Origin: Nostoc linckia FACHB-104
GTDB taxonomy: Bacteria > Cyanobacteriota > Cyanobacteriia > Cyanobacteriales > Nostocaceae
Assembly: GCF_014696615.1 (NCBI RefSeq)
Contig: NZ_JACJQJ010000089.1
Span: forward strand, 1 to 32,444
Reading direction: 5' to 3'
DNA length: 32,444 nucleotides
The translations under genes were made by a program, and so were the position numbers. The notes under the pieces are model-generated. The model was not told the origin of the DNA. It worked only from the letters and a program-made list of their open reading frames with translations, and made no database searches. Of this stretch, positions 29,691-32,444 are shown piece after piece (the first letter of the stretch is position 1; every line of letters begins with the position of its first letter).

Positions 29691-30132
29691 CTAACTCAGT
29701 CCATTAATAACCTTTCTGTTGTCTAAAGGGCTATTATATCGGCCACCATGAACTGGCTACAGTTAGAGGCAATATAATAATTCTTCATCTCTCTTGGTGT
29801 AAATACTTCATAATAGAAGATTGCGAACTAGGGACTAGGGACTAGAGAAGAAAAATTTTCCTGCTTGGTTGTGGACTTTTACCCTAATTGACTGACTGGT
29901 AAATAAGTAATAGGGACTGAAAATTGGGAATTACAAGGAAGACAAACTAGACAAATAATTTATAATCTGTTCCTTAAGAAATCTACTTGAAACTTGACTT
30001 TTGAGTCTTGACAAGAAATTTTTCTTCATTTTGTCATACCCAGTTTATTCATGGTTACTTAGTTGTTGGCAAAATAGATAGTTAGGAGTCAATAGTTATT
30101 ATTCATTTTTCTCCATCTGTCTATCTTGTGAT

Positions 30133-30618
30133 TTATCCATTTCGCCAACGATTTATAGCTCTTAAATATGCTGCAATTGGAATTTGATAAACCTCAATAC
30201 AAATCCAAAGAATAATTGCTAAATGTAACAAAAAAGTTAATATAGTCCAGATATATGGCAACCAGGTAATAAATTCATGGGGAGTAGGGGGAAAATTGTA
30301 AGCGACTATGCCAATTAAAGTGGTAGGTAGGAAGATAAAAGCGATCGCAGCTAGCCCATAGCCCCAACCAAGTTCCACACCTTCTAATTGTGCTTCTGTC
30401 CAACTAAAACCATTCCAACGCCAAATCAATGGTGGTTGTCTAGAAGGCATTTTGAGTTGCTGCTGTTCTAGATTGACAGTAAAAATTTCTTGGCAGAAGT
30501 CACAAGCCATAGCTTCCATCAATGGCATACGAGTAATTTTACCAACTCGACAGACTGGGCAAGGGTAAGCGCCTTGGTAGTCGAAAGATGTAGCTAAAAT
30601 TTTGGAACGAGGCATCAT
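30133..30618 (-). CDS. Zinc-ribbon protein with two membrane helices, function unknown
   Basis: I place the start at one of two adjacent ATGs (30618 or 30615; MMPRSKILATSFDYQG), giving about 161 residues. The frame extends to 30753, but the extra residues overlap low-complexity sequence. Near the N-terminus CPVC (about residues 20-23) and CDFC (about 39-42) form a probable zinc ribbon. PPLIWRWNGFSW follows, then two hydrophobic helices (GYGLAAIAFIFLPTTLIGIVAY and WTILTFLLHLAIILWICIEVY) and a short basic end. No named family is recognised. It stands alone between repeat-rich regions and reads away from aroF. Confidence 0.75.
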   Translation of the reverse strand: MMPRSKILATSFDYQGAYPCPVCRVGKITRMPLMEAMACDFCQEIFTVNLEQQQLKMPSRQPPLIWRWNGFSWTEAQLEGVELGWGYGLAAIAFIFLPTTLIGIVAYNFPPTPHEFITWLPYIWTILTFLLHLAIILWICIEVYQIPIAAYLRAINRWRNG

Positions 30619-30914
30619 AAAACAGAAGTAGGCTAGTAATGTAATTGAGTTGCTGCAACAGTTAGAGTGGTCACAAGAGGTATGGGAGCAGGGTGCAAGG
30701 GGGAAGGCTGGGACGGAGCTTGTACCTTTTCCTCTTTTGATTATTACCTCCATAGCAGAATAATATATTTGCCAGTTTTGAAAGTCGCGGAATTGTCAAA
30801 TTTTTGAGACTGCAGCAATTCCCATACCCATTACCTAAAAATATTTGTTGGCTTATCTAAATCTTAATAGTTACAAGTCGGTGACAGGAAAACCCATAAC
30901 CAAGGGATGAGTTG

Positions 30915-30975
30915 CAACTCGGAATTTGGTTTGGGGAAAAGGTGAAAGGGTAAGGGTTAAAGGTTTTTTCTTGCC
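30915..30975 (+). repeat. 61-bp dispersed repeat, copy 2 (copy 1 inside the MITE at 1173-1233)
   Basis: CAACTCGGAATTTGGTTTGG through TTTTTTCTTGCC is identical over 61 bases to 1173-1233, in the same orientation. Here the terminal inverted repeats of the complete element are not clearly present; only CTTAACCAGCAG at 30993-31004 resembles its right end. It is probably a truncated or diverged copy. Confidence 0.85.
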
Positions 30976-30985
30976 CCTTGTCCCC

Positions 30986-31004
30986 CTGCTGGCTTAACCA
31001 GCAG
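30986..31004. other. Small hairpin
   Basis: CTGCTGG (30986-30992) and CCAGCAG (30998-31004) form a 7-bp stem with a 5-nt loop, followed by CTTTT. It lies at the right end of the repeat copy and upstream of the aroF leader region. It could be a weak terminator on the plus strand. Confidence 0.45.
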
Positions 31005-31120
31005 CTTTTAACCGCACACGACGAGACCAGGTCTTGACGCAAAGAACTGTGTCTGTTATTGTGACTCTTATATTAGGTTTACATCGGTTTACATCAAAAA
31101 TTATCTAGTTAAGTACTGTA

Positions 31121-31180
31121 ATGATTTCCAGCAATAAATCCTATTTTTATTTTTGGCAAAAGGCGGTTCACCGGCGGTGA
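31121..31180 (+). CDS. Aromatic-rich leader peptide 1 of aroF
   Basis: A 19-codon ORF encodes MISSNKSYFYFWQKAVHRR and ends at TGA 31178-31180. Five consecutive codons (31142-31156) are Tyr-Phe-Tyr-Phe-Trp. It lies about 310 bases upstream of a DAHP synthase, the entry enzyme of aromatic amino acid synthesis, so the codons match the pathway products. Between the Trp codon and the stop codon lies segment 31163-31172, which is the 5' arm of an antiterminator helix. A ribosome stalled on the aromatic codons would leave that segment free; a ribosome reaching the stop would cover it. No strong ribosome-binding site is visible, and a TATATT at 31069-31074 is a possible -10. The role as an attenuation leader is inferred from sequence, not shown. 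Confidence 0.82.
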   Translation: MISSNKSYFYFWQKAVHRR

Positions 31181-31242
31181 ATAGTTTCCTAATGGAAACC
31201 GCCAGGTGAACCGCAGAGCAACCTCTGCGGTTTTTGTTTTTT
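31163..31242 (+). terminator. Attenuator 1: competing antiterminator and intrinsic terminator
   Basis: GCGGTTCACC (31163-31172) pairs perfectly with GGTGAACCGC (31205-31214), enclosing GGCGGT/ACCGCC (31173-31178 with 31198-31203). Alternatively AACCGCAGAG (31209-31218) pairs perfectly with CTCTGCGGTT (31223-31232) around a 4-nt loop, followed by TTTTTGTTTTTT, an intrinsic terminator. The two structures share 31209-31214 and exclude each other. The first arm of the antiterminator is coding sequence of leader peptide 1, so ribosome position can decide which forms. Confidence 0.88.
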
Positions 31243-31260
31243 CAGGAGTATTTCGTCGTC

Positions 31261-31323
31261 ATGATCTATTGCGGTAGCTGGTTTTATAGCTTTTACTTTT
31301 GGCCCAGAGCAAGTTCCGGGTAA
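31261..31323 (+). CDS. Aromatic-rich leader peptide 2 of aroF
   Basis: A 20-codon ORF encodes MIYCGSWFYSFYFWPRASSG and ends at TAA 31321-31323. Eight of its residues are aromatic: three Tyr, three Phe and two Trp, seven of them clustered at codons 31279-31302. AGGAG (31244-31248) lies 12 bases before the ATG. It starts 19 bases after the T-tract of attenuator 1. The core SFYFW-P-R-A parallels YFYFW-Q-K-A of leader 1. Codons for Ser-Ser-Gly and the first T of the stop form the 5' arm (31312-31321) of the second antiterminator helix. The layout therefore repeats that of leader 1 with unrelated helix sequences. Function as a ribosome-stalling leader is a strong inference. Confidence 0.87.
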   Translation: MIYCGSWFYSFYFWPRASSG

Positions 31324-31386
31324 ATAGCGTCATGTCGATTAATCACAACGCACCCGGAACTCACAAGATGAGATTCCGGGTTTTTT
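31312..31386 (+). terminator. Attenuator 2: competing antiterminator and intrinsic terminator
   Basis: AGTTCCGGGT (31312-31321) pairs perfectly with ACCCGGAACT (31352-31361). Alternatively ACCCGGAA (31352-31359) pairs with TTCCGGGT (31374-31381), extended by CTC/GAG (31360-31362 with 31370-31372) past one bulged A, and followed by a run of T to 31386. The terminator is 44 bases before the aroF ATG. The shared middle segment makes the two structures exclusive. The first arm overlaps the stop codon of leader peptide 2, where a terminating ribosome would hide it. Confidence 0.9.
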
Positions 31387-31429
31387 GTTATCCATTAACC
31401 TCATTTCCCAATACAAAGAGAATTTCACC

Positions 31430-32296
31430 ATGATTAATGCTCAACTCGCCGCGCAATCCCATCCTAGCCACCAAACAATTGTCAAACTCTCAGAAACAGT
31501 CAGCTTCGGTGGTGAAGAATTAGTGATTATTGGTGGCCCCTGTACAGTAGAAAGCTTAGAACAAATGGAAACAGTAGCCCAAAAGTTAGCGGCTGTACCT
31601 GTACAAGCTTTGCGTGGCGGTGTCTACAAACCCCGCACATCTCCCTATGCTTTCCAAGGTATGGGAGAAGCAGGATTAGAAGTTTTGGCAAAAGTGCGAT
31701 CGCGTTACAATATCCCAGTTGTGACAGAAGTAATGTCAATTGCTCAAATTGAAGTAGTCGCTGCTCATGCTGATATGCTGCAAGTTGGTAGCCGCAATAT
31801 GCAAAACTTCGACTTACTTAAAGCTTTGGGACAAGCTGGGAAGCCAATATTACTCAAGCGCGGACTAGCGGCGACAATTGAAGAATTCGTTATGGCTGCT
31901 GAATATATTTTGAGTCACGGTAATCCTGATGTGGTGCTGTGCGAACGAGGTATCCGCAGCTTCGATAATTACACCCGCAATGTGCTGGACTTAGGCGCAG
32001 TAGCAGCTCTCAAGCAAATTACTCACCTACCCGTGATTGTAGATCCATCCCATGCCGTAGGTAAACGGGAATTAGTAGCACCTATGGCTAAGGCGGCTAT
32101 AGCTTGTGGTGCAGATGGCTTAATTATTGAGTGTCACCCAGAACCAGAAAAATCTGTATCTGATGCACGCCAAGCTTTGTCTTTAGAAGACATGGTGAAT
32201 TTGGTTGCAAGTCTCAAGCCTTTAGCCACAGCAGTTGGACGCAATATTTCAGACTTAGGGGTGGGTGTAAAATCATTGGCATTGGTGTCAACTTAA
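31430..32296 (+). CDS. aroF: 3-deoxy-7-phosphoheptulonate (DAHP) synthase, type I-beta, core only
   Basis: It condenses phosphoenolpyruvate and erythrose-4-phosphate to DAHP, the first step of the shikimate pathway, in the cytoplasm. The 288 residues contain all family blocks: [55 protein letters not shown] and [10 protein letters not shown]. Metal ligands fall at Cys38, His208, Glu234 and Asp245, with the same spacing as recalled for Thermotoga DAHP synthase (102, 272, 298, 309). The N-terminal regulatory domain of that enzyme (about 64 residues) is therefore absent, and no chorismate-mutase domain is fused, which predicts little allosteric feedback. ATG 31430 follows AAAGAG with 9-base spacing. 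An in-frame TTG at 31385 lies in the terminator T-tract and is rejected. Two attenuators precede the gene. Confidence 0.96.
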
Positions 32297-32324
32297 CACC
32301 AAACCCGCTTTGTGCAAAGGTTTT

Positions 32325-32417
32325 GCCCTCACCCCCAGCCCCTCTCCCTCAGGGAGATGGGAGCAAGAGATTCAATTCCCCTTCTCCCTGAGGGAGAAGG
32401 GGTTAGGGGATGAGGGC
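32325..32417. repeat. Large imperfect palindromic repeat (CCCTCACCCCCAGCCCCT type)
   Basis: GCCCTCACCCCCAGCCCCTC with TCCCTCAGGGAGA on the left is mirrored by TCTCCCTGAGGGAGAAGGGG and TTAGGGGATGAGGGC on the right. The whole can fold into a long imperfect stem. This is a very common intergenic repeat in filamentous cyanobacteria. It lies 3' of aroF and may end its transcript. Confidence 0.8.
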
Positions 32418-32444
32418 GCGAGGGTTTTTGTACAACACCCGCCG

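Follow-up and report, generated by a model that had tools for sequence, protein, structure and literature searches.

Two candidate aromatic leader-peptide attenuators in series upstream of a core-type DAHP synthase gene in cyanobacteria

Introduction

How might a cyanobacterium match the first enzyme of the shared aromatic pathway to the supply of aromatic amino acids when that enzyme carries no regulatory domain? The question is raised by the 3' end of the window, that is, the whole stretch of 32,444 nucleotides analysed here (Nostoc linckia FACHB-104, contig NZ_JACJQJ010000089.1, positions 1 to 32,444 of the forward strand; own-genome assembly of 9.39 Mb in 181 contigs), which is occupied by a gene lying downstream of two leader units:

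31430-32296, + strand: aroF, core-type DAHP synthase of 288 amino acids (Pfam DAHP_synth_1)

An earlier note on this DNA had placed both units upstream of a DAHP synthase gene, and the Pfam match bears out that identity. The aroF product matched the catalytic DAHP_synth_1 model and the related NeuB model and no other Pfam model, and a domain search for the ferredoxin-like regulatory domain did not find it there. Its top match among solved structures is chain 1zco (262 residues), which we take to be an unregulated Pyrococcus enzyme. Leader-peptide (ribosome-mediated) attenuation is a classical mechanism by which such a gene could be controlled, and the features upstream of aroF are examined here with this mechanism in mind.

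Results

Both units show clustered codons for the pathway's end products, a predicted terminator between the ORF and the gene, and helices that are mutually exclusive. The features of unit 1 are:

31121-31180, + strand: leader ORF 1, translated as MISSNKSYFYFWQKAVHRR and ending in a stop codon
31163-31172, + strand: antiterminator 1, 5' arm GCGGTTCACC, inside leader ORF 1 between the aromatic codons and the stop
31205-31214, + strand: antiterminator 1, 3' arm GGTGAACCGC, a perfect 10 bp with 31163-31172, overlapping terminator 1
31209-31218 with 31223-31232, + strand: predicted terminator 1 stem, AACCGCAGAG with CTCTGCGGTT, T-rich to 31242
31167-31181, + strand: candidate pause-like hairpin TTCAC/GTGAA, containing the TGA stop of leader 1

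Those of unit 2 are:

31261-31323, + strand: leader ORF 2, translated as MIYCGSWFYSFYFWPRASSG and ending in a stop codon
31312-31321, + strand: antiterminator 2, 5' arm AGTTCCGGGT, at the end of leader ORF 2, its last base being the first base of the stop codon
31352-31361, + strand: antiterminator 2, 3' arm ACCCGGAACT, a perfect 10 bp with 31312-31321, doubling as the 5' arm of terminator 2
31352-31359 with 31374-31381, + strand: predicted terminator 2 stem, ACCCGGAA with TTCCGGGT, T-rich to 31389

The earlier note had described each unit as an aromatic ORF followed by a perfect 10-bp helix that competes with a T-tailed terminator, the 5' arm of the antiterminator lying between the aromatic codons and the stop. 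The re-checked coordinates agree with that description to within a few bases, the folds of both units hold, and the arm lies where it was said to lie, reaching the first base of the stop in unit 2. When each fold was compared with 200 dinucleotide shuffles, the z-scores were -4.4 and -5.8 for unit 1, where no shuffle did as well in either comparison, and -3.0 and -2.6 for unit 2, where 2 and 1 shuffles did. A simple terminator scan of the window listed terminator 1 and missed terminator 2, the stem of which is interrupted. Within the loop of antiterminator 2 (31324-31351), the stretch GCGTCATG...GATGAATC is conserved in the own family, with GCGTCATG at the apex; class-wide, the conservation of this apical stretch is far lower. 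On the other side of aroF lies a palindromic repeat (32325-32417), the source of chance microRNA-family matches in Rfam: a cmscan of 30000-32444 returned 18 such matches on this palindrome and one sub-threshold STnc70 match.

Could two such units arise by chance? A fixed detector was applied that looks for an aromatic ORF, then a terminator and then a competing helix starting near the end of the ORF, with helices limited to 12 bp. In 228 regions upstream of aroF it found two units in 191, one in 35 and none in 2, whereas in 456 dinucleotide shuffles (two per region) it found none in 454, one in 2 and two in 0. It detected no unit in 228 reverse complements and none in 25 distal regions. The 228 regions include some genomes twice, as the named set (78 of 80 regions used; L185 and L187 were too short) overlaps the family and class sets; with duplicates removed, 196 unique regions remain, and the detector finds two units in 167 of them, one in 27 and none in 2. 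The two regions without a detected unit are an assembly gap (L217) and a locus in which unit 2 is visible by eye (L243). One unit missed by the detector was recognised by peptide pattern or by eye in 6 family loci and in 12 class loci outside family f20. The observation of two tandem units is real and far from chance.

The earlier note had proposed asking whether homologous loci that keep aroF also keep the aromatic leader ORFs, and they do: across the orthologous loci of 14 families, leader 1 is present in 150 of 150 assessable loci and leader 2 in 146 of 150. In the own family both leaders occur in 85/85 assessable loci, six leaders 2 having been added by eye. These derive from 96 listed orthologues, of which 90 were used (G076, G060, G138, G127, G033 and G074 were left out), less four with too little upstream sequence (L014, L017, L018, L048) and one with an assembly gap (L049). 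In 13 other families of the class, leader 1 is found in 65/65 loci and leader 2 in 61/65, and the four loci without it are all four loci of family f20. Here 67 orthologues at no less than 63% identity were listed and 65 were used, G203 and G147 being partial matches; a 55% paralogue (L159) is excluded from the orthologue counts. One own-family locus counted as present (L074, genome G032) carries a tandem-repeat insertion that splits leader 2 between its original start and its aromatic codons; an in-frame ATG nevertheless leaves a 40-aa ORF there.

Among named records, both units were found by the detector in Nostoc carneum (L181), Scytonema sp. NIES-4073 (L219), Calothrix sp. NIES-4105 (L228), Spirulina subsalsa (L232) and Phormidesmis priestleyi (L246), and the pair of units occurs also outside Nostocales. 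In a phylum sample of 244 genomes, searched with stricter filters under which weak matches are lost, the unit-1 model matches 26 genomes and an orthologue (at least 72% identity) is present in 26, with an overlap of 25; the unit-2 model gives 25 strong matches (E<1e-7), every one in an orthologue-bearing genome. The sole match of the unit-1 model in the own genome at E <= 10 is unit 1 of the window. Weak unit-2 model matches were seen at 27 places (E 1e-4 to 1e-2), and 16 of the 17 inspected were judged by eye to be chance or plain terminators.

Also among those 17 is a locus from another class of the phylum (G494, L318:487-1469), where a single aromatic leader, read by eye as MQKPNFSFFWFYFNPQGSD and a stop codon, is accompanied by a terminator and a competing helix and precedes a core-type DAHP synthase of 275 aa. 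This single attenuator suggests a wider or older distribution. Further loci with one unit exist, with unit 1 only in f20 (4/4) and G408 and unit 2 only in G429 and L243, so the pair is not indispensable. A scan upstream of 8 DAHP synthases from other parts of the phylum (L339-L346) found no aromatic leader. In genome G028 (L315) unit 1 is joined to what remains of a truncated aroF, and in L326 (G074) aroF is likewise reduced to remnants. On a contig labelled Candidatus Obscuribacter (L254), possibly misbinned, both units accompany an aroF of cyanobacterial type (73% identity).

Are the competing helices themselves maintained by selection on pairing? In class-wide alignments (82 rows for unit 1 and 76 for unit 2; 500 shuffles plus slid controls per helix), 0 of 500 shuffles reached the observed covariation score for any of the four helices and all slid controls lay below it, counts that are not probabilities because the shuffles ignore relatedness and related sequences may exceed such shuffles without structure. 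The observed scores against shuffled means are 0.272 versus 0.122 for antiterminator 1, 0.170 versus 0.086 for terminator 1, 0.225 versus 0.160 for antiterminator 2 and 0.287 versus 0.181 for terminator 2. Compensatory changes in both helix pairs, which the earlier note had named as a check, are thus present in the class set. Within the own family terminator 1 covaries weakly, 15 of 500 shuffles reaching its score. In the class set antiterminator 2 reaches 84.1% pairing, and its two outermost pairs are broken in 41 and 30 of 75 rows. Plain counts of pairs or of pair types do not lift the class-set unit-2 helices above shuffles: equally high values came from 276 and 167 of 500 shuffles for antiterminator 2, and from 354 and 455 for terminator 2.

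The arm shared between helices is the most telling part of each unit. At columns 48-100-117 of unit 2, the 76 rows read T-A-T in 27, C-G-C in 15 and C-G-T in 10, the other 24 being mixed; a shared arm that varies with both of its predicted partners in this way is the signature of mutually exclusive helices. The shared arm of unit 1 varies little, and its changes are mostly compensated in one partner and accommodated by a G-U pair in the other; a three-way C-G-C was seen at two column sets, each time in a single row out of 82. In three loci (L023, L037, L069) the antiterminator-1 arm changes from CACCG to CACTG, which replaces Arg by Trp in the leader, while the partner arm becomes CAGTG. For this reason, the predicted RNA pairing is read as overriding the peptide where the antiterminator arm of unit 1 is coding. 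A pause hairpin (1:2) would keep polymerase and ribosome in step in an attenuator of this kind; the candidate for it in unit 1, TTCAC/GTGAA, is paired in 100% of cells in the own-family set and in 94.4% in the class set, with no two-sided changes. The stop codon within this hairpin, TGA, is used in 122/128 leaders 1 versus 22/128 leaders 2, a preference that hints at a role for the hairpin without proving one.

Which amino acids would the leaders report, and from where would they be transcribed? Phe, Tyr and Trp codons are all present in 127/128 leaders 1 and 125/128 leaders 2, and Phe and Tyr interchange at aligned positions of leader 1 (YYYYW, YFYYW, YFYFW). On these grounds the leaders fit a sensor of general aromatic supply placed on the first enzyme of the shared pathway. 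Upstream of leader 1 the window contains:

31034-31062, + strand: predicted sigma-70-like promoter by consensus match, TTGACG, 17 nt, TATTGT

The -10 box of this site starts 64 nt before the leader-1 ATG, and the number of sites found by the promoter scan of the window is not above that in shuffles. When loci are compared, the top-scoring promoter-like sequence ahead of leader 1 reaches at least 9/12 in 85/147 versus 12% of mononucleotide shuffles, and its -10 box lies 41-60 nt before the ATG in 96/147. The same scan upstream of leader 2 reached a score of 9 in 0/79 family loci. A promoter-like site that recurs upstream of leader 1, and none ahead of leader 2, suggests that a single transcript spans the two units.

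The geometry of the arms relative to the codons was measured, and folding modelled, in those 128 loci of the family and class sets for which the detector reported the complete pair; 99/128 antiterminators 1 reach the detector's 12-bp helix limit. The unit-1 arm starts 6-10 nt past the first base of the last clustered aromatic codon in 125/128 loci and ends 2-7 nt ahead of the first base of the stop in 124/128. The unit-2 arm starts 11-15 nt past the corresponding base in 104/128 and ends between 1 nt past and 2 nt before the first base of the stop in 118/128. The modelled ribosome was assumed to mask 12 nt past the first base of the codon in its A site, in line with a reported coverage of about 12 nt downstream of the translated codon (PMC4833913). 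When the ribosome stalls at the first clustered aromatic codon, the model predicts that the antiterminator forms before the terminator 3' arm (>0.5) in 127/128 loci for unit 1 and 125/128 for unit 2. With the ribosome at the stop, the antiterminator comes first in 0/128 for both units, an outcome that follows in part from the construction of the model, in which the mask lies over the arm. In the model the arms are thus covered at the stop and free at the regulatory codons, only partially so for stalls of unit 1 at the last aromatic codon, where the antiterminator exceeds 0.5 in 34/128 loci versus 116/128 for unit 2. At equilibrium, the terminator is still favoured (>0.5) after an early stall in 109/128 for unit 1 and 74/128 for unit 2, so that antitermination must rest on the order of folding. 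The stall-and-mask logic put forward in the earlier note therefore stands as far as geometry and the folding model go, and is limited at equilibrium and for late stalls in unit 1.

Is this arrangement common to DAHP synthase genes or peculiar to one type? The own genome's second DAHP synthase (L002) has the ferredoxin-like domain, and inspection by eye of its upstream region found no such leader. In other genomes, 0/20 regions upstream of ferredoxin-domain paralogues, hand-picked from listings and so not random, carry a unit; 20/20 of those paralogues start with the same kind of N-terminal extension, and 10/10 tested match the ferredoxin-like domain. The tandem pair goes with the core-type enzyme rather than with the ferredoxin-domain paralogue. 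From this we infer a division of control in which the core enzyme would be regulated at the RNA level and the long enzyme allosterically.

Discussion

How, then, could the end products of the pathway reach a DAHP synthase that lacks a regulatory domain? Very probably, through two ribosome-mediated transcription attenuators in series, with aroF read only if both gates open. Comparison among loci establishes the basis of this proposal, namely conserved aromatic ORFs, covarying competing helices, the position of the arms and linkage to the gene; translation of the leaders, stalling, termination in vivo and the way in which both gates combine are what we infer from it. RNA polymerase would start upstream of leader 1, and a ribosome would translate that leader. 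When charged tRNA for Tyr, Phe or Trp runs low, the ribosome would stall on the aromatic codons and leave the 5' antiterminator arm exposed, the antiterminator would form ahead of synthesis of the terminator 3' arm, and the polymerase would pass terminator 1. With ample supply, a ribosome at the stop codon would cover the antiterminator arm and terminator 1 would form. A polymerase past terminator 1 would meet a second, separately translated leader of like logic, and both gates would have to be open for aroF to be read. Two gates would be expected to sharpen the response. We also lean, with some reserve, towards a broader view of the locus as an ancient two-stage gate, in which two independent attenuators in series, each with codons for all three aromatics, act on a DAHP synthase without an allosteric domain; RNA feedback would replace allosteric feedback at the entry to the shikimate pathway, the product of two read-through probabilities would give a steep response, and this would be the first leader-peptide attenuation described in the phylum.

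An alternative hypothesis is that only one unit works, probably the second and nearer to the gene, with the other a relic or a passive insulating terminator. The natural single-unit loci, in which one or the other unit stands alone, agree with this, as does the weaker response of unit 1 to a stall at the last aromatic codon in the folding model. A relic would decay, however, yet both units keep aromatic codons and covarying helices across 13-14 families, and we regard a single working unit as unlikely. A different possibility is that the leaders are arrest peptides which sense free aromatics in the exit tunnel, on the model of TnaC, a stall at or near the stop then masking the antiterminator arm. 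Non-aromatic residues are indeed conserved in the own family (VVHRE, WPRxSSG), but they lie largely within the antiterminator arms and change when the arm changes, and the interchange of Phe and Tyr fits tRNA charging better than one specific peptide; arrest peptides are in our judgement very unlikely.

It is extremely improbable that a riboswitch, a T-box or an RNA-binding protein controls the terminators and the ORFs are incidental. The cmscan of 30000-32444 gave no riboswitch or T-box match in Rfam up to E 1, and in 14 families the arms of both units adjoin leader ORFs whose aromatic codons are conserved. The apical GCGTCATG stretch of unit 2, conserved in the own family, would speak for such a factor, but class-wide it is far less conserved.

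If the two serial attenuators are real regulators, coupled transcription-translation governs a central biosynthetic gene in cyanobacteria. With the two gates retained in 14 families and single-gate variants found in nature, it becomes possible to test what serial attenuation contributes, be it gain, noise or the filtering of brief shortages. The attenuated core enzyme beside a leaderless ferredoxin-domain enzyme would show RNA-level feedback exchanged for feedback at the protein level, and this split offers a handle for engineering aromatic output in cyanobacteria.

How does the pair compare with known systems? The E. coli trp and pheA leaders are ribosome-mediated attenuators, and the multivalent leader of E. 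coli ilvGMEDA reads several amino acids of one pathway family. Like trp and pheA, the cyanobacterial units would combine a leader rich in the regulated amino acid with a competing antiterminator and an intrinsic terminator, under the same sign of control; unlike the pair, trp and pheA have a single attenuator, one amino acid and terminal-branch genes, in Proteobacteria. The ilvGMEDA leader shares the multivalent reading and differs in its branched-chain amino acids and single attenuator. Attenuation at the E. coli trp leader is described in PMC7858274, and PMC8632094 records that attenuation was earlier hypothesised for E. coli aroF. The latter paper also presents uORFC-13-1, an attenuator candidate upstream of aroF in Acholeplasma with 24 representatives, described in its account from Acholeplasma and environmental sequences only. 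As described there, this motif likewise has a Phe-containing leader ORF and a terminator ahead of the DAHP synthase gene, with ribosome control proposed, and differs in organism and sequence, in having one unit, and in a U run that specifies one or more Phe. PMC6429828 mentions two uORF candidates that contain Phe and Tyr and are linked to shikimate genes; they are likewise aromatic, and the main text of that source does not contain the stem cyanobacteri-. Two elements in one leader are described for the rimP-leader with its second tandem terminator (PMC2965389), for the tandem attenuators of Mg transporters (PMC4974804) and for ermB with two leader peptides (PMC8274638), which as described respond to other signals and are not paired amino-acid leader attenuators for one biosynthetic gene. 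The earlier note did not recall the mechanism from cyanobacteria or as two units in series; in agreement with it, searches of open-access literature, outside which most subscription journals lie, yielded no report of leader-peptide attenuation from a cyanobacterium, nor of any gene with two serial leader attenuators that respond to amino acids. Apparently new, therefore, are the presence of such attenuators in cyanobacteria, their conservation as a pair, and their coupling to a DAHP synthase without a regulatory domain.
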